Source: a virus. Taken from it: a stretch of 50,107 nucleotides of DNA. Location: positions 1-50,107 of the IMG/VR virus record IMGVR_UViG_3300025305_000029. One strand, 5' to 3'. The notes beneath the pieces were generated by a model. The model was not told the origin of the DNA, did not search any database, and saw only the letters and a list, made by a program, of their open reading frames with translations. Positions within the stretch are counted from its first letter, which is position 1, and every line of letters begins with the position of its first letter. The position numbers were made by a program, and so were the translations under genes. Below are positions 19,501-49,347 of the stretch, piece by piece.

Positions 19501-20289
19501 TTACTCAAATGGAATAGTTGGTACATCGTTATAAAGAACCAGCATAATCTTGTTCTCTATCAAGGCAGACCAGTAACCCTCTTGGATTAGTCTAATTCCC
19601 ATATCTTTGGTCGTTACCAGCATCGACAACGGCCACGAGTGGTTAGGGAAGTATTTAATGAATTCCCTATTGGGATCCGCATAGAGTTTATAATTCAACT
19701 TCTTGTCTGCCAAGTCAGAAGCCATCATTGCCCAAGCTTCCATGAATTCTAAATCAATATGAAATCCAGCCGAACCCGGCTCCACATTATCAAATGGTGC
19801 ATCACCAATAATGTTGGTATTGCCCATTGTATAAACAATCTCTAAGCCATCCTCATGATACTTCTCATATATCTCTATTAAAGCAGCCGTCTCCTTAAGA
19901 CAAGGACCACACCAGCCCGCGCTGCTGGCTATCAGAAGGGCTTTGTGCTCCCCGTGTGAGAAGTAGTCCGATAATTCAATCCAAGTGTCTTCCCAGGGGT
20001 CGTAGAAGCTCATATTTGGTATTACGCCGAATAGCTCTAGTGCATACGGTCCTTCCGGGTATGTCTCTTCAGGCTCAGGCTCCACTTGCTCAGGTGCAAT
20101 ATCCAGCACATCAACAACGGGAACCTCAAGGACCTCAAGAGTCTCCGGCTCCGACTCCGTGGGCACATCATTTACTACATCACTTACAGCAGATACTTTA
20201 ACACCAGGGGTGCCTAGATCATTCGTGGTGTCAGGGGGGTGTCCCATGCATCCAAATAGAAAAAATGGCACAATGGCGTAAGCTTTCAT
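19501..20289 (-). CDS. Thioredoxin-fold (TlpA-like) lipoprotein
   Basis: Begins with a lipoprotein signal (FFLFGC, Cys 14). Residues about 25-78 are an acidic, low-complexity linker of Asp, Val, Glu and Pro, followed by a redoxin domain with WCGPC at 126-130. The domain resembles membrane-anchored TlpA/ResA thiol-disulfide oxidoreductases. ATG 20289 follows GGGG and the consensus promoter at 20315-20342. The product should work in the oxidising periplasm. Such linkers remind me of myxobacterial lipoproteins, hinting at transfer from the host. Confidence 0.85.
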   Translation of the reverse strand: MKAYAIVPFFLFGCMGHPPDTTNDLGTPGVKVSAVSDVVNDVPTESEPETLEVLEVPVVDVLDIAPEQVEPEPEETYPEGPYALELFGVIPNMSFYDPWEDTWIELSDYFSHGEHKALLIASSAGWCGPCLKETAALIEIYEKYHEDGLEIVYTMGNTNIIGDAPFDNVEPGSAGFHIDLEFMEAWAMMASDLADKKLNYKLYADPNREFIKYFPNHSWPLSMLVTTKDMGIRLIQEGYWSALIENKIMLVLYNDVPTIPFE

Positions 20290-33528: not shown

Positions 33529-35115
33529 TTATTTTTCAATAACCGCGCAACTTGTAGTGAGCAGTATGCCCGATGCGCTTACAGCGTTTGTAAGGGCACT
33601 TTTTGTGACCTTGGCAGGATCAATAATACCACATTCTATCATATCTACAAACTTTTCATTTATAACATCGAAACCAACGTTCTCATCATCCAAGTGTTCA
33701 CAGGCGAGCTTCGTTAAAATTTCTTCGGGGCCGATGCCTGCGTTCTGGAGGATCTTCGTGATAGGAGCGCAGACGGATTCTTTTAATAGTTTAAATCCCT
33801 GCCTCTCTGCCTCCGTAGAGAGCCCAGTGTGTGTCTCCGGGTCTAGGCCCTGGGCAATCCTAAAGAGTGTCGTGCCGCCACCAGGAACCACTCCGTCTGC
33901 TTGTGCTGCCTTAACGGCCTCCAGCGCATCTTCAATGCGGTGTTTCTTTTCTACCATTTCAATCTCAGTTGCTGCGCCGACATAGATGATACCGATACTA
34001 GATGCAAGCCTCGCAACCCTTTCTTGTAATCTGAGTAACTCACGGTCATTGTCTGTCTGTGCCATCTCTGAACGGAGTTGTTCAATTTTCTTATCCACCT
34101 CTTCGTAATCGCCATTGCCATCGACCATGAGAGTGTGATTTTTCCCAATCTCGATATTTTTAACGAGGCCCAGATCCGAGAGCGCCATTGCCGAAATACT
34201 CTTGTCTCCGTCTACCGTAAAGAAGTGAGCCCCGGTGGCCAGAGACACATCTTCAAGTATGTTCCTCCGTTCTTCGCCATAATTCGGCACCTTTACGGCT
34301 GCAATCTTCAAGGAACCCTTAATGGAGTTCATTATCAGCGCAGCCAGAAGCTTGCCCTCAACGCCCTCGGCAAATATAACCAAGGGTCGCCCGTCCCTTG
34401 CCACCAGTTCAAGCACGGGCATTAGTTCATTCAAGTTTTCAAGGCGCTTATTCGCAACAAGAACAAAGGAGTCTTCAAGCTTAACTAAATTCTTCCTCTC
34501 ATCGTTTACAAATTCTTGAGATATGTATCCGCCTTCCAGCCGCAACCCTTCAACAATCTCCAAGCTTGTCTCAAGAGAGCGAGCCTCTTTGATTGTCAGG
34601 GACCCATTTTTTCCAACTTGCTCTGTCGCAGTACAAATCAGATCCCCAATAACCTTATCATTATTTGCAGAGATAGTAGCGATTTGTTTAATTTGATTAA
34701 GAGATATGATCGGCGTAGACTTCCGATCCACACAGGAAATAATTTCGTCAAGACAGATTTCCATACCTCTCTTAAGCTCCACGGGAGGATACTGTTCAAC
34801 TAGTTTGCGTCCCTGTCGTAGGATCTCATTCGCTAGAACCGTCGCGGTTGTAGTTCCGTCTCCAGCAACAGCGTTCGTCCTTCTCGAAGCCTGCTTAACA
34901 ATCAGTGAGCCAACGTTCTCTAAGGGATCTGACTCACTAAAAAACTCCGCTACGGTTACACCATCCTTGGTGACCATCGGCTCGCCCTTCCTCTTCTGAA
35001 GGATTACGTTTCTTCCTCGTGGACCAAGCGTAACCGATACCGCGTCGGATAGCTTGCTCACTCCACTACATAATTTATCAAACAACTCTTGATCATATGC
35101 GATAATCTTCGCCAT
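33529..35115 (-). CDS. groEL: GroEL-family chaperonin (HSP60)
   Basis: 528 residues, close to bacterial GroEL (about 545). Conserved features include VTLGPRGRNVILQ near 28-40, the ATP-binding DGTTTATVLA (about 86-95) and PGGGTTLFRIAQG in the equatorial domain. The usual Gly-Met tail is absent; the end is TTSCAVIEK. It should fold phage and host proteins as a ring. No GroES-like gene is visible in the window. ATG 35115 follows AGAGG. Confidence 0.95.
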   Translation of the reverse strand: MAKIIAYDQELFDKLCSGVSKLSDAVSVTLGPRGRNVILQKRKGEPMVTKDGVTVAEFFSESDPLENVGSLIVKQASRRTNAVAGDGTTTATVLANEILRQGRKLVEQYPPVELKRGMEICLDEIISCVDRKSTPIISLNQIKQIATISANNDKVIGDLICTATEQVGKNGSLTIKEARSLETSLEIVEGLRLEGGYISQEFVNDERKNLVKLEDSFVLVANKRLENLNELMPVLELVARDGRPLVIFAEGVEGKLLAALIMNSIKGSLKIAAVKVPNYGEERRNILEDVSLATGAHFFTVDGDKSISAMALSDLGLVKNIEIGKNHTLMVDGNGDYEEVDKKIEQLRSEMAQTDNDRELLRLQERVARLASSIGIIYVGAATEIEMVEKKHRIEDALEAVKAAQADGVVPGGGTTLFRIAQGLDPETHTGLSTEAERQGFKLLKESVCAPITKILQNAGIGPEEILTKLACEHLDDENVGFDVINEKFVDMIECGIIDPAKVTKSALTNAVSASGILLTTSCAVIEK

Positions 35116-37185: not shown

Positions 37186-38049
37186 TTATTGATTCTTCAA
37201 CTCATTGATAATTGTATCAAGAGGCAGTCCAGCAGTGTCAATCTTCTTTCTTGTTAAATGATAATGACATACAACACCATTAAAATTCGCTTTGACCGCT
37301 GGATCATGGACCCCTGTCAGCAATGTACCATCTTCCCTCATCGGATAATTAAACTCAATATCATAATAACTACATAATGTTAGAACTAGTTTTTTGTATG
37401 CTTCAATTTGCACCGGATAATATCCAAGGTGCGGTTTTAGCTTTCTACCATGCACAACGCTGTCTGTCAAGGTTGGCCGCGTGCCAAATCCGCGCTTCTC
37501 ATACGTAGTGCCGTATCGTGTGTAATACGCATTGCTAAAATCAATACCTATCGAAGCCTTGTTTACTTTTCTATTGCCAGCATGCCACCCTATGTGATTA
37601 CAGTCAAGCAATTGAAAAATGGTCCCATCGTTATCTATAACGAAATGAGTGGATATGTTTCTTTTTTCTAGTATCTTCTTGCAAGACGCAGCCGATAACG
37701 CAGCGTCCCAATGTGTAACAATCATAGTTGGGACACGTTCGTTCTTCACTTCTTTGTGCGTTCCGGGCTTCAAGAGGTCCATCTTCATTGAACGCCAGTC
37801 AAGCGGAACATGTTTTCCGTTGCATAGTATTCCCGTCGTCCGCACCCTCTGGTGTGCCTCTCTGTTGGTCTCTAGTCGCCTATGTGTGGCTGGTCCGACT
37901 AGGCCATCAGTATCAAGTCCATGCTGTTTTTGAAAGCATGTAATGGCGCTGATCAGGTCTTCATTAAACCCAGTCATTCCTAACCAAGAAGGCGACCATC
38001 CGTATTTTTTGGACGACCTCTTGTTATATAGGATCTTAAATAAACTCAT
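37186..38049 (-). CDS. Endolysin: PG-binding plus N-acetylmuramoyl-L-alanine amidase
   Basis: 287 residues. The N-terminus has a peptidoglycan-binding-like segment (FNEDLISAITCFQKQHGLDT through DGLVGPATHRRL, about 28-59). The amidase_2 domain follows with zinc-ligand candidates His 113 (VTHWD), the IGWHAGN segment and HYHLTRKKIDTAG at the end. It cuts the bond between MurNAc and the peptide. No signal peptide, so a holin is expected. ATG 38049 overlaps the previous stop (TAATG). Confidence 0.9.
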   Translation of the reverse strand: MSLFKILYNKRSSKKYGWSPSWLGMTGFNEDLISAITCFQKQHGLDTDGLVGPATHRRLETNREAHQRVRTTGILCNGKHVPLDWRSMKMDLLKPGTHKEVKNERVPTMIVTHWDAALSAASCKKILEKRNISTHFVIDNDGTIFQLLDCNHIGWHAGNRKVNKASIGIDFSNAYYTRYGTTYEKRGFGTRPTLTDSVVHGRKLKPHLGYYPVQIEAYKKLVLTLCSYYDIEFNYPMREDGTLLTGVHDPAVKANFNGVVCHYHLTRKKIDTAGLPLDTIINELKNQ

Positions 38050-43250: not shown

Positions 43251-43712
43251 CTACTCTCCCGTGGAGCCTAGCGCCCCATCACCACGATTAGAAATAACAA
43301 TTGGCTCTTCATCCCAGTACAAGTCCTCAGATTCTATCTCCGCAAGGCGGAAATGAACAACCGGAACCAGCACAAGTTGCGCGATCTTATCCCCGGGCTC
43401 TACCGTACACGGCCAGCGACCTATGTTGTGTAGGTCAATAAAAACTTCCCCACTGTAGCCAGCGTCCACAATGTGTGCCCCAACAACCAACTCTTTCTTA
43501 GCAGCCATGCTAGAGCGATTACATACTTGTAGCATGTACCCATGCGGCACAGCAAAGCTGAACCCCGTTTCAAGCATCCTGTTTTCATTTGAAGGGATCT
43601 CTATTGAGTTTCCTTCGGGCGGATTGTAAAACACATCCATCCCCGCATCTGACGGATTTGCCCGATTAGGGGACACAGCACCCTCTCTAAGGCATGCACA
43701 CTCTATTATCAC
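43251..43712 (-). CDS. dut: dUTPase (dUTP diphosphatase)
   Basis: 153 residues with all five trimeric dUTPase motifs visible: DAGMDV (23-28), NRSSMA (about 65-70), GVVDAGY-like VDAGYSG, the GDKIAQLVLVPV stretch, and the C-terminal RGDGALGSTG. Hydrolyses dUTP to dUMP, lowering uracil in DNA. GTG 43712 follows GGAAGG. Confidence 0.93.
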   Translation of the reverse strand: MIIECACLREGAVSPNRANPSDAGMDVFYNPPEGNSIEIPSNENRMLETGFSFAVPHGYMLQVCNRSSMAAKKELVVGAHIVDAGYSGEVFIDLHNIGRWPCTVEPGDKIAQLVLVPVVHFRLAEIESEDLYWDEEPIVISNRGDGALGSTGE

Positions 43713-43764: not shown

Positions 43765-45063
43765 TCAAGCATTTTCAGACAATAATGTTCGTATTCTTTC
43801 AACCGCCTTCTTTCTTTCTATCTGGAAGAGATCGCTTCTTTGTTTAATGCCTTGTAACAAGTCCTCATATTCTCGCTTTCTCTCCGGTGTCTTAAACGGG
43901 GCGTCGGAGGGCGGCAACCCATCTCCCGGAAGGCTCTTGGGGGCATGGCCACGAATCAAAGCATCAATCGAGTTACTCCTTTCCGACCACATCGTCTTAT
44001 ACTGCTTAGGAGTGAAATGCCATCCTTCGGGATCGATTTTCATCCCGGTATCCTGGACTGCTTGTCGCATATCATGATAAGGAATTCCACTATTCCTTGC
44101 CAATTCTTTATACTCGTCGTTTATTCTCTTCTTGTATTCATCATACAAGTGCTCGTTTCTTATAACGTTGGAGCCGGCAGGGGGCGAGCCTCCCCATTGT
44201 GTTACCAATCCCATCAATGGCTTCACGTAAGATTCTTTATACGTTTCCCACTTCTCGGGAGAGCCAACTGCGTGCATATAATCGTTCCCGCCCATAGAGC
44301 CCGCTATTATGTGAGTGGGATTAAACTCCGATATTTTTGCATTAAATTCTCTCTGCCTATCCGTCTTTGGTCCTTTGAGCGTTTCGTACCAAAATTGTGA
44401 GGTTGCACCAATTTTTGGCAATACTAAAACATCCCACCCTCTTCTTTCAAAGGTTTCCTTAGCTCCATCCATTTGGTTATAACCAGCAGTAACGGAGTCT
44501 CCGAAAACTAAAACCCTAGTCTGCGAGTGAAGGTCCACCTGGCTCTTTGCCAATGAGATCTCCATAATGCGCAACTCGGTCTTGTTTTTCCACTCGCGTC
44601 TTTTCATAAATCCGTGAAAGCCAGAAAAATACGCTCTCCAAATATATTTCCAATCCGATCTATTCCAAGAGTCTACAGGAACAGCCGGAGCCTCTTTATG
44701 AAGTGTCCGGACGCTGGGATCCGATAGCTTTCGTTGTAGTCGTGCAAGGTAAAAGGCAGACGCAGGGATCGCCTTTGTAACATCCGTTCTATCTCTCAGG
44801 GGAAGGGACTTGCCATATAATTTTTTGGTTACACCCTTCCAGGTACCTGGCATAAACTGCGCTATGCCAAGCGCCCCCGTCTCTGACAAAGATCTCTCAT
44901 ATCCAGAGCTTTCCCTCATTATCACAGCCCTTAAGAATTCAGGGTTAAGGCCTTCTTTGAGTGCTGATTTGCGAATAAGACTTTCCATCTCCTTCGTAAA
45001 CCCCCTCTGCGACGGGATATAATGCCTTTTACCGGCTTTTCGATTCGGTTTGACCCTGGCCAT
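43765..45063 (-). CDS. Lytic transglycosylase fused to SGNH hydrolase
   Basis: 432 residues. An SLT-type lytic transglycosylase occupies residues about 22-110: catalytic Glu 51 in RESSG, GALGIAQFMPGTWKG (63-77) and the later AFYLARL. An SGNH/GDSL hydrolase follows: GDSVTAG (Ser 190), GGND (258-261) and Asp 344/His 349 in DPEGWH. A helical tail ends the chain. The first domain cuts glycan; the second could remove acetyl groups that block it. No signal peptide, so a virion or endolysin-like role is likely. Confidence 0.88.
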   Translation of the reverse strand: MARVKPNRKAGKRHYIPSQRGFTKEMESLIRKSALKEGLNPEFLRAVIMRESSGYERSLSETGALGIAQFMPGTWKGVTKKLYGKSLPLRDRTDVTKAIPASAFYLARLQRKLSDPSVRTLHKEAPAVPVDSWNRSDWKYIWRAYFSGFHGFMKRREWKNKTELRIMEISLAKSQVDLHSQTRVLVFGDSVTAGYNQMDGAKETFERRGWDVLVLPKIGATSQFWYETLKGPKTDRQREFNAKISEFNPTHIIAGSMGGNDYMHAVGSPEKWETYKESYVKPLMGLVTQWGGSPPAGSNVIRNEHLYDEYKKRINDEYKELARNSGIPYHDMRQAVQDTGMKIDPEGWHFTPKQYKTMWSERSNSIDALIRGHAPKSLPGDGLPPSDAPFKTPERKREYEDLLQGIKQRSDLFQIERKKAVERIRTLLSENA

Positions 45064-45101: not shown

Positions 45102-48100
45102 TCAGGATATGCATCTGACGTTTTTCCATAATTTGTTTATTGAATATCCCCACTTTTCATCATGGTCAACTTTTCCTATGTAAACCTTGTTTGAGACAAT
45201 ATCGCAGTCATTCGGATTGTACCCCCAGCACTTAATCTGAGTGCTCTTAAACGTCGAGTCCGTCGTTTTAATAATCAGGTACTTTTTCCCCTTCCTTGTA
45301 GCCTTTTCTTCAATGTCCCGTATAATGAACCAGCATAAAGGCTTCTCTTTATCGTACATTCCAAGTGGCCGCACTTGCATGGAGAGAAGTTTCTCGTATA
45401 CTGCATCGGATAGAACCCTTCTTATGGGGTAAATGCCGGTTAGCGTTACAATATTTTCAATGTTCTCTTCATTCGTAAACGGAGGTAGATCTCCGTACTT
45501 CTCAATGTTCTCTTCTAATTTCTTCGGGGTCTTTGGCCGGTCGTCAGCGATACACTTCCAAAAATGCTTTAAAGAGTTAAACCTTTCATCGACCAAATCA
45601 TCTAAAGCATGGCTTCTTGCCAGTACATCTAAGCATCTTTTATTGAAGATCCTATAACTTATTTCTTCATTAAAAATTAAGTCTTCAATCGTATTATACG
45701 GGCCACTGTTAAGCACCTCCCGAACAGCCTTGTCTCCGAACCCCTTAATCGAATTCAACGGAAGAAACAGTTCCGTCCCGTCCTCGCTAATTGTCCATGT
45801 CTCTTTCGAGGACGCAATATTCGGAAGCGACACCTTGAACCCTGCGGCCTTTACTCTGGAAATAGCGACTTGCTTCTTCTCATCATCATCACTGTTCTTT
45901 TCTAAGAATGCCGCAAGCCACTCTACGGGATAGTAATAAGCCAGCCACGCGCATTGATACGAGATCATGGCATAGGCCAGGCCGTGACTCTTGTTGAACC
46001 CGTATTTTGAAAATGCCTCCAGCGTCTTCCAAATCTCGACCGCATCCTCTTCCTGAATGCCTTTCGCAATCGACCCTCTTAAGAAGCGTTCTCGATATTC
46101 CTCTAGGAGCCCTTCCTTCCCGGTTCCCTTTTTAGTTAAAAGCTTTCTAATAAAATTACCGTCGTCTAGAGAGATATTATCGCCCAGCTTGTGTGCAATC
46201 GTTGCAATCTGCTCTTGATACACTACAAAACCAGAACTGTTTCTTGTTTCCTCTTCAATCAATGGATGCAATGGCCTAGCCTCAATCTCACCAGAGCGAA
46301 CCGCCAGAATCTTCTTATCAACACCCATTCCTAGAGGTCCCGGTCGGTATACACTTGTAATCATTGCCAAATCTTCCAGAGAGCGCGGCTTAGCCCTCTG
46401 ACAAAATGATTGTACCCCCGGTTCAGTAAACTGGAATATGGAAAACCACTTTTCATCAGAATGATATATCCCTTCATATATGTCTTGATTATCAAAATTA
46501 ATGGTGTCCGGGTGTAGGAACCTATCATAAAAATTCTTAACATCAGAGAAGACAGGCCTTTCATTACCAAAATGTCTTATAAGCACTTGCCTAATCGCAT
46601 CTTGAATCATTTCAATCGTGCTAAGACCCAAGATATCAAACTTGATAAAACCCAGGGGTTCAAGGTGTCGAACATTTTGCCCTTCCGTCCATGGCGTTTG
46701 AAGAACTCCTCCGCTCTTAATGAGAGGCATGTGTTGATCTAAGTTCTCCGCTATAACACATCCGCCCGCATGACGGCTTAAGCTCCGAACCTGCCCGTGG
46801 AGATTATTAATGTGTACCTCTACTTCTGGGTACTCCCTGAGAAACTGTTTTAGGCTTGCGCTATATTCTTTTGTTTCTTCAAACGTAGGAATATATACCC
46901 CCGCCGTAATCCCGTGGACTCTTTTTGCCTCCGGGGTGGCTTCCGACACCATGACGCTTGTTACGTCGTTTACTTCTTTAAAGGGGATCTCATAAAACTT
47001 TGAAATGTCTTTAATCAGGCTCCTCAACTTGAGAGTGTTAAAATTCGAAATGGGAACAATCGCATTCTTACCCCACTCATTCGCAAGATGCTCCTTAAGA
47101 TCGTGAGGGCCCGAAACGTCGAAATCTATATCAGGGTACCCGTCATCCGACGGCCTCAAAAACCTCTCGAACTGAAGACTCCACTTAATCGGATCAACTT
47201 GCGTTATCCCCAAAACATACGCCACCAGCGCACCGGCAGCAGAGCCTCTGCCCGGACCGGAGAGCCCTCTTTCAGCGCCCTTGTCTGCCAAGACTTTCAT
47301 GGTAAGGAAGTACTTTGAGAAATCCCTATCTCCAATTACATTCAATTCAAACTTAAGTCTGTCAATATATTCCTTGTTCTTATGCAACCCCTTAGTGCGA
47401 AGCCCTTCAATGCAGAACTCGGCCAAGGCCCTGTCTGGGGTTTTTCCTTCCGGTACAACGAAAGATGGCAATTTAATCGATGTATCAGGAGTAAAATCCC
47501 CAATCATATCAAACGCGATATCGTGCGTTCTTTCAATTGACTCTAGAATCAGATCATCGTCATATTCGATATTAAAAACCTTAGAGTAATCCTTATAACT
47601 ATCCCACATCTGGTCACCGTTCTTGGGATATAGTTCGTACCCCACTTCTTCGATCGTCCCGGGCAAGCTATTCTCTCCACCTCCCTTGCTCAGCCATGCC
47701 AGCTTCTTATAAAGAATTCGATCTTTCCACAGGTCTGGCCTTGGATAATGTGAGTCTGCGGTCGAAATAAGGGGGGTGTTTAGTTCTTTTGATGCTCTAA
47801 CGAGGTATTTGTTTAATACATGTTGCTGCTTAATTGCATTCCATTGAAGCTCCAGGAAAAACCTATCGCCAAAGATAGACTTGAATTCCTCCGCGCGGGA
47901 CAGGATTTGCTCAAAAACAATCGTATCGTTAAAATCCTCTCCGGCTTCCCAGACAGGCTTCATTAAATAAGAACCCAGACAGGCAGTTGAAACAATAATG
48001 CCTTCGTTGTGTTCTTTTAGGAGATCAAAATCAACTCTAGGATACCGATAAAAATTGTCATCCCCATATGACTTAGAGACAACCTGAAACAGGTTTTTGA

Positions 48101-48548
48101 GACCAACTTCATTTTGTGCCAAGAGCACAAGATGGCTTCTTTCGTTAAGGGGATTGAATTTTGTTCGGCCCTTGGTCTCTTCCTCGTTTTCAATCAATTC
48201 GGCTTTTTCATCCGACTTCTTAATCTTCGTTTTATTTTTTTTCGTTTCTTCGTATAGGTCTTTCCAATTGTCAACTGAGTTTATGAAATACGCTTCGACA
48301 CCAAAAATAGGTTTAAACTCTTTCCCTTTTTCTGCCATCTTTTTTGCATGCAGAACTTGATATGACAACGCATTCATTGTGCCGTGGTCTGTGGTAGCCA
48401 GGGCATCCATTCCGTTCTCCCATGCGAAATCCATGTGCTCATCTGGATATCCTATGGCATCCCCAGGAGAGCCAATAGTGGTGTGTCCATGCAGACCAAC
48501 GAATTTAATCTTCGATTCTTTCCTCTTCAATTCGATCCACCTTCCCAA
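45102..48548 (-). CDS. dnaE: DNA polymerase III alpha subunit (C-family, DnaE-type)
   Basis: 1148 residues. The N-terminal PHP domain has LHGH (19-22) and ATTDHG (51-56). The polymerase core shows GPGRGSAAGALVAY (431-444), catalytic PDIDFD (472-477), then YQEQI and GFNKSHGLAYAMISYQ. This is the replicative polymerase. Its opening is typical, from memory, of large aquatic phages with C-family polymerases. The start is uncertain: TTG 48548 lies inside the upstream gene, and TTG 48530 has a better SD (AAGGTGG). Confidence 0.95.
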   Translation of the reverse strand: MGRWIELKRKESKIKFVGLHGHTTIGSPGDAIGYPDEHMDFAWENGMDALATTDHGTMNALSYQVLHAKKMAEKGKEFKPIFGVEAYFINSVDNWKDLYEETKKNKTKIKKSDEKAELIENEEETKGRTKFNPLNERSHLVLLAQNEVGLKNLFQVVSKSYGDDNFYRYPRVDFDLLKEHNEGIIVSTACLGSYLMKPVWEAGEDFNDTIVFEQILSRAEEFKSIFGDRFFLELQWNAIKQQHVLNKYLVRASKELNTPLISTADSHYPRPDLWKDRILYKKLAWLSKGGGENSLPGTIEEVGYELYPKNGDQMWDSYKDYSKVFNIEYDDDLILESIERTHDIAFDMIGDFTPDTSIKLPSFVVPEGKTPDRALAEFCIEGLRTKGLHKNKEYIDRLKFELNVIGDRDFSKYFLTMKVLADKGAERGLSGPGRGSAAGALVAYVLGITQVDPIKWSLQFERFLRPSDDGYPDIDFDVSGPHDLKEHLANEWGKNAIVPISNFNTLKLRSLIKDISKFYEIPFKEVNDVTSVMVSEATPEAKRVHGITAGVYIPTFEETKEYSASLKQFLREYPEVEVHINNLHGQVRSLSRHAGGCVIAENLDQHMPLIKSGGVLQTPWTEGQNVRHLEPLGFIKFDILGLSTIEMIQDAIRQVLIRHFGNERPVFSDVKNFYDRFLHPDTINFDNQDIYEGIYHSDEKWFSIFQFTEPGVQSFCQRAKPRSLEDLAMITSVYRPGPLGMGVDKKILAVRSGEIEARPLHPLIEEETRNSSGFVVYQEQIATIAHKLGDNISLDDGNFIRKLLTKKGTGKEGLLEEYRERFLRGSIAKGIQEEDAVEIWKTLEAFSKYGFNKSHGLAYAMISYQCAWLAYYYPVEWLAAFLEKNSDDDEKKQVAISRVKAAGFKVSLPNIASSKETWTISEDGTELFLPLNSIKGFGDKAVREVLNSGPYNTIEDLIFNEEISYRIFNKRCLDVLARSHALDDLVDERFNSLKHFWKCIADDRPKTPKKLEENIEKYGDLPPFTNEENIENIVTLTGIYPIRRVLSDAVYEKLLSMQVRPLGMYDKEKPLCWFIIRDIEEKATRKGKKYLIIKTTDSTFKSTQIKCWGYNPNDCDIVSNKVYIGKVDHDEKWGYSINKLWKNVRCIS

Positions 48549-49347
48549 ATTCCAGCTTCTTTAAGTCGAGCGTATGCTCCGTGCTCGTATACCGCTGGTA
48601 TCCTTTCCACGAGTCCGCTTTATAATACCATGGGGTGACCTGCGTGCAATGTTCTTTTCCCCGGAGACACTCAAAAAACTCGTCAAACGGCAGGTCCTTC
48701 GCAAAAATATGTTCGCTCACGGGTACATACGCACACTTATCAAATCGCTTTTTGATTTTTTCCTTCGTGCTAGAGAGAACCTCTTCAAAATCTTTCGAGT
48801 CAAACGTGAATGGAAGATATGCACCCGAAAATACGCTCTCCTCGTTATGTTCAATTACAACATTCGTTTTGCTCGCAAACTGCCCCCTGTATTCTTTTAG
48901 TATCTCTGGATCATGTATTCCGTAAGGCACAGAAACAAAAAACTTTCTAGGTATAAGGTGTTCACTGAACTTCGACGTAACCTTTTTAGCCCACATCGCA
49001 GAGTTGATTACTGACCACCCCAGGCTCTCTTTCCTGTCATAGTCCAAAACTCGCAATGGAACATAATACACGGGAATCCGCTTCGTGTTGTAGTTCTCGA
49101 ATATTTCCATCCTATAGATCGGATCTGTTATAAAGTCGCCAATCATTTTTTTAATGAACGGAAGTATATCATACGGACACGTTATCCATATACTACTGCA
49201 CCCTGCGTATGCGCAGTCGTAGAGGCTGCGCTCTAGAGCCGTGATCCCGTCCCCGACTGGCAAGAAACAATCATGCCATGCAAAATTAAAAAGTTTCTTG
49301 CCTTCAACCGGTATACACCCGGCTATATTCCTAAATGTTTCAGACAT
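48505..49347 (-). CDS. Conserved marine-phage protein, nucleotidyltransferase-like
   Basis: 280 residues. GCIPVEGKKLFNFAWHDCFL, then ALERSLYDCAYAGCSSIWIT and IPVYYVPL, matches, from memory, a protein of marine T4-like phages that resembles NDP-sugar or nucleotidyl transferases. The enzymatic role is not established. It overlaps DnaE by 44 bases and is overlapped by the gene upstream. Confidence 0.7.
   Translation of the reverse strand: MSETFRNIAGCIPVEGKKLFNFAWHDCFLPVGDGITALERSLYDCAYAGCSSIWITCPYDILPFIKKMIGDFITDPIYRMEIFENYNTKRIPVYYVPLRVLDYDRKESLGWSVINSAMWAKKVTSKFSEHLIPRKFFVSVPYGIHDPEILKEYRGQFASKTNVVIEHNEESVFSGAYLPFTFDSKDFEEVLSSTKEKIKKRFDKCAYVPVSEHIFAKDLPFDEFFECLRGKEHCTQVTPWYYKADSWKGYQRYTSTEHTLDLKKLEFGKVDRIEEERIED

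Follow-up and report, generated by a model that had tools for sequence, protein, structure and literature searches.

An uncultured phage encodes, in a single protein, an SLT lytic transglycosylase domain and an SGNH/GDSL hydrolase domain, and the same SGNH subfamily is found fused to two different types of glycan-strand cutter in related records. The gene was found in an IMG/VR virus record of 50,107 bases, analysed as a whole and called here the window. The leading reading is that of a glycan-strand lysin carrying its own de-O-acetylase and accessory to an amidase lysin; it is quite possibly correct, if somewhat short of probable. It leads because the partners of the SGNH domain belong to the enzyme classes inhibited by O-acetylation and because the SGNH fold lies near carbohydrate O-acetylesterases.

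Table. Features of the fusion protein, its neighbourhood and its relatives. Coordinates are those of the window unless a record is named; (-), minus strand; (+), plus strand. Residue numbers are those of the fusion protein.
Feature	Coordinates	Strand	Basis or remark
SLT-SGNH fusion protein	43765..45063	(-)	432 aa, single ORF
SLT lytic transglycosylase domain, residues 29-137	44653..44979	(-)	Pfam PF01464; motifs reach about residue 150
E51, predicted catalytic Glu in MRESSG	44911..44913	(-)	Aligns with IES/VES of related SLT domains
SLT motif GALGIAQFMPGT, residues 63-74	44842..44877	(-)	Sequence and alignment
SLT motif AYFSG, residues 144-148	44620..44634	(-)	Alignment; AYNAG or AYYSG in relatives
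Predicted linker helix, residues 161-177	44533..44583	(-)	AlphaFold model
SGNH/GDSL hydrolase domain, residues 183-371	43951..44517	(-)	Pfam, AlphaFold, Foldseek
Block I GDS 188-190, predicted nucleophile Ser190	44494..44502	(-)	Invariant in 6/6 related domains
Block II Gly219	44407..44409	(-)	Invariant in 6/6 related domains
Block III GGND 258-261 (Asn260)	44281..44292	(-)	Invariant in 6/6 related domains
Block V E346-G-W-H349	44017..44028	(-)	Alignment; Glu at usual Asp position
C-terminal predicted helix, residues 391-430	43774..43893	(-)	AlphaFold
DnaE-type DNA polymerase III alpha	45102..48548	(-)	Syntenic anchor
280-aa conserved protein of unknown function	48505..49347	(-)	Homologue borders fusion gene in relatives
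dUTPase	43251..43712	(-)	
Amidase_2 protein with peptidoglycan-binding domain	37186..38049	(-)	
IMPDH/GMP reductase family protein, 337 aa	41747-42760	(-)	Shorter than usual IMPDH; below NCBIfam cut-offs for IMPDH and GMP reductase; syntenic in relatives
Glu-rich, very acidic protein, 255 aa	40602-41369	(-)	Near head maturation protease; no Pfam or PHROG match
GroEL-type chaperonin, phage-encoded	33529-35115	(-)	23 relatives in IMG/VR
Protein with AhpC/thioredoxin-like domain	19501-20289	(-)	
Five phage tRNA genes (Lys, Ile, Leu, Thr, Arg)	6887-29128		
Relative L093 (G033)			SLT + SGNH
Relative L094 (G035)			SLT + SGNH
Relative L014 (G006)			N-acetylmuramidase PF11860 + SGNH, weak TonB_C-like match between
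Relative L073 (G039)			N-acetylmuramidase PF11860 + SGNH
Relative L099 (G020)			Muramidase-type N-terminus by BLAST + SGNH
725-aa protein with repeated MopE-type metal-binding motifs	L037:6345-8519	(+)	

The fusion is confirmed. The ORF is unbroken on the minus strand from an ATG at 45063 to a stop codon ending at 43765, and Pfam places the lytic transglycosylase at the N-terminus and the SGNH/GDSL hydrolase at the C-terminus. A fusion of these two enzymes had been predicted originally, and both domain matches stand above their curated cut-offs: PF01464 (E 2.2e-13; 50.3 bits versus 21.3) and PF13472, Lipase_GDSL_2 (residues 186-356; E 3.1e-9; 38 bits versus 32.9). PF00657 also matches (E 2.8e-8; 34.6 bits versus 23.6). 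The AlphaFold model of the whole protein (mean pLDDT 69; models were built on six sequences) consists of a helical part, which Foldseek relates to MltE, and an alpha/beta/alpha part, related to SGNH esterases. Domain search and structure prediction, both proposed earlier as checks, agree on two domains. The fusion is not an assembly join, since the same layout, free of internal stops, recurs in related contigs. Judged by hydropathy only, the protein has no recognisable signal peptide or transmembrane stretch.

The N-terminal domain is assigned to the SLT lytic transglycosylases, and an activity forming anhydromuropeptides is predicted. Aligned with related SLT domains, its motif set is complete (E51; GALGIAQ, residues 63-69; AYFSG, 144-148). 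Its best PHROG is phrog_342, internal virion protein with endolysin domain (6.5e-13), and it is 33-34% identical to Pectobacterium phage proteins over about residues 25-143. In having phrog_342 as its closest PHROG, the domain resembles the T7 gp16-like internal virion lytic transglycosylases. Unlike that family, whose profile spans 1235 positions, the window protein has 432 aa, is fused to an SGNH domain and is encoded outside the structural block.

The SGNH domain has Ser190, Gly219, Asn260 and His349 (blocks I, II, III and V); three residues ahead of the block-V His, the usual Asp is replaced by E346. Canonical relatives carry D-G-I-H or D-N-V-H at block V. Across the six domains aligned, L099 and L073 keep the Asp, L014 has no acidic counterpart at this position, and L093 and L094 lack the His (two of six). 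Catalysis is thus probably not uniformly conserved in the subfamily. SGNH members with a Ser-His dyad exist. The window domain is kept in the SGNH/GDSL superfamily despite E346, because it matches the profile, carries the Ser, Gly, Asn and His of the four blocks and has the expected fold in the model. The original view that both active sites are intact holds for the SLT site and has to be amended for block V of the SGNH site. Modelled separately, the SGNH part reached a pLDDT of 81.6 and a pTM of 0.83, and its Foldseek matches to SGNH folds extend down to E 3.6e-7. The best are acyltransferase 8zbc, acetylxylan esterases, Est24, CJ0610C, sialate O-acetylesterases and PatB; arylesterases, TesA and GDSL lipase folds are also among the matches. 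Viral fold matches include named tailspikes and structural proteins.

Relatives were sought in IMG/VR with the window Pol III alpha (44 loci) and the phage GroEL (23 loci), and 48 of the records behind these loci were scanned with PF13472, PF01464 and an SGNH profile. In five of them, a glycan-strand cutter (SLT in two, N-acetylmuramidase-type in three) is followed by a C-terminal domain of the same SGNH subfamily; this brings the subfamily to six members, window included. The N-terminus of L099 has no Pfam match at E 0.1 and matches the L014 muramidase at about 1e-7 by BLAST. No significant similarity between SLT-type and muramidase-type N-termini was found by BLAST. In the Pol III alpha tree, L014 clusters with L073 and L099; the SGNH tree has a supported split of L073 and L099 versus the window, L014, L093 and L094. 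This SGNH tree and the dissimilar N-termini suggest that the cutter was exchanged while the SGNH domain stayed: the glycan cutter appears to have been swapped, in a comparison of six short, divergent sequences in which the events were neither dated nor counted.

Four relatives share a conserved C-terminal module that the window protein lacks; the C-module profile has no match anywhere in the window. The module was considered as a tag common to other proteins and rejected: in 33 records, only these fusions carry it. L074 (G021) was left out of the count, as its GDSL domain belongs to another subfamily; its 512-aa frame (L074:1465-3000, minus strand) bears DGIH in the GDSL domain, and Pfam gives no match for its N-terminus, in which a resemblance to SleB/CwlJ hydrolases is seen by eye. 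L002, a single locus obtained from a spacing pattern, is a chance match. With the window protein as query, no close relatives were found in IMG/VR or GTDB contigs. A loosened motif pattern returned only the known record of L014, alignment scans A1, A2 and A4 of IMG/VR and GTDB gave no members beyond those named, and pattern-based scans of GTDB contigs, which have limited reach in distance, found none. By tblastn, also of limited reach, none of 50,697 phage records truly matched the SGNH domains of three members; the lone weak cultured-phage match, to a T5-type tape measure, was judged to be chance.

The fusion gene lies among replication genes, a context that does not favour a virion-associated lysin. 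The block includes genes for a 5'-3' exonuclease, a DnaB-type helicase, ribonucleotide reductase, Pol III alpha, dUTPase and an IMPDH-type protein. In the window the fusion gene is just downstream of Pol III alpha and ahead of dUTPase; in all five relatives it is just upstream of Pol III alpha, after a homologue of the 280-aa window protein. In L093 and L094, Pol III alpha is further separated from the fusion gene by a gene for a PLP-dependent enzyme (PALP; L093:9812-10696, L094:9753-10607). At the other Pol III loci, no protein in this slot combined GDS with GGND in a simple motif scan. Apart from the fusion, the window, L093 and L094 each encode an Amidase_2 protein of about 300 aa, and that of the window is likely the ordinary endolysin of the phage. 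The possibly incomplete records of the three muramidase-type members yielded no Amidase_2 protein.

The kind of protein is already published: GDSL or SGNH domains occur in putative phage lysins. Among uncultured phages, putative endolysins bearing Lipase_GDSL_2 have been described, with no obvious role assigned to the domain (PMC5968864). The window protein resembles these in having a GDSL domain in a putative phage wall lysin; unlike it, they are described, in the part of that source consulted, with neither recurrence beside swapped cutters nor synteny. In Staphylococcus phage phi11, gp44 is described as combining an endopeptidase with an SGNH domain (PMC5380687), and staphylococcal Tal proteins have a putative endopeptidase and a hub domain joined to SGNH (PMC5380687, PMC7048315, PMC4876445). 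Phi11 gp44 and 80alpha gp59 (Tal) share with the window protein a putative wall lysin followed by a C-terminal SGNH hydrolase. The wall enzyme of Tal is a putative endopeptidase on a baseplate hub; the window protein carries a glycan-strand cutter instead. The earlier remark that this is not a standard phage lysin is therefore fair, yet has precedents in PMC5968864 and in phi11 gp44 (PMC5380687). For this SGNH subfamily, the searches gave no cultured-phage match.

MurNAc 6-O-acetylation precludes lytic transglycosylases and inhibits lysozymes (PMC6174289). Ape, the known remover of this group, is an SGNH enzyme, and Neisseria ape1 is a stand-alone gene (PMC6174289). The window domain shares the SGNH fold with the bacterial enzymes Ape1 and PatB, the structures of PatB and Campylobacter jejuni CJ0610C being among its best matches. 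It differs from Ape1 and PatB in its identity of about 15%, in the lack of a detected carbohydrate-binding domain and in having Glu for the block-V Asp. Because the Ser-His-Asp triad of Ape is altered in this way, the protein was not filed in the peptidoglycan O-acetylesterase (Ape) family.

Under the leading reading, the SLT domain would cut the MurNAc-GlcNAc bond and leave 1,6-anhydro-MurNAc ends. The SGNH domain would be a carbohydrate O-acyl esterase removing acetyl, with the MurNAc C6 hydroxyl as the likeliest site, and de-acetylation would let the adjoining glycan cutter act on the modified wall. That both domains are catalytic, that the substrate is MurNAc O-acetyl and that the two cooperate is presumed. 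The protein would be accessory to the separate amidase lysin and act at the entry or the lysis stage. The idea of an enzyme clearing its own obstacle gains from the SLT and muramidase partners and from folds similar to O-acetylesterases and PatB, and is weakened by the two relatives without the block-V His. The small membership (six), the broad substrate range of SGNH enzymes, with arylesterases and TesA among the fold matches, the block-V changes and the lack of a secretion signal or membrane segment by hydropathy all count against it.

The target of the SGNH domain may differ. It could deacylate another surface glycan (capsule, O-antigen, exopolysaccharide) at entry, the SLT domain then opening the wall, in a virion-associated penetration protein; we consider this unlikely, though not strongly so. 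In its favour, a characterised phage tailspike has an SGNH domain that deacetylates capsule (PMC11058221), and the viral fold matches include named tailspikes and structural proteins. The SLT domain has its closest relatives in T7 gp16-like internal virion proteins, and the PHROGs matched by two muramidase-type relatives belong to the head and packaging category. Against it, the gene sits with replication and nucleotide genes rather than in a tail module, the searches turned up no fibre or spike domain, and the partners of the subfamily are wall-cutting domains. Action on lipid, by a lipase- or phospholipase-like enzyme aiding membrane disruption during lysis, is distinctly improbable: carbohydrate esterases make up many of the top matches of the separately modelled SGNH part and hydropathy gives no membrane segment, against which can be set the TesA-type and GDSL lipase folds among the matches and a Pseudomonas phage GDSL lipase-like protein annotated as lysis-associated (PMC12173070). 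The block-V changes bear rather on whether the domain is an enzyme. A degenerate, non-catalytic module that only binds the glycan of the wall and directs the cutter to it would explain the missing His of L093 and L094, the Glu of the window protein and the lack of an acid in L014; it is rather improbable, as none of the six domains deviates at the Ser, the Gly or GGND, DxxH is kept in L099 and L073, and the window protein keeps its His.

The de-O-acetylase reading may extend to the clade. It is possible, and proposed tentatively, that these uncultured phages share an accessory lysin in which a conserved SGNH de-O-acetylase is combined with exchangeable SLT or muramidase cutters, as a one-polypeptide counter to host O-acetylation. 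The occurrence at one locus of two different cutters with the SGNH domain makes a functional link between them testable, not anecdotal. If true, the fusion would be a phage answer to the O-acetylation block and a bifunctional lysin open to test.
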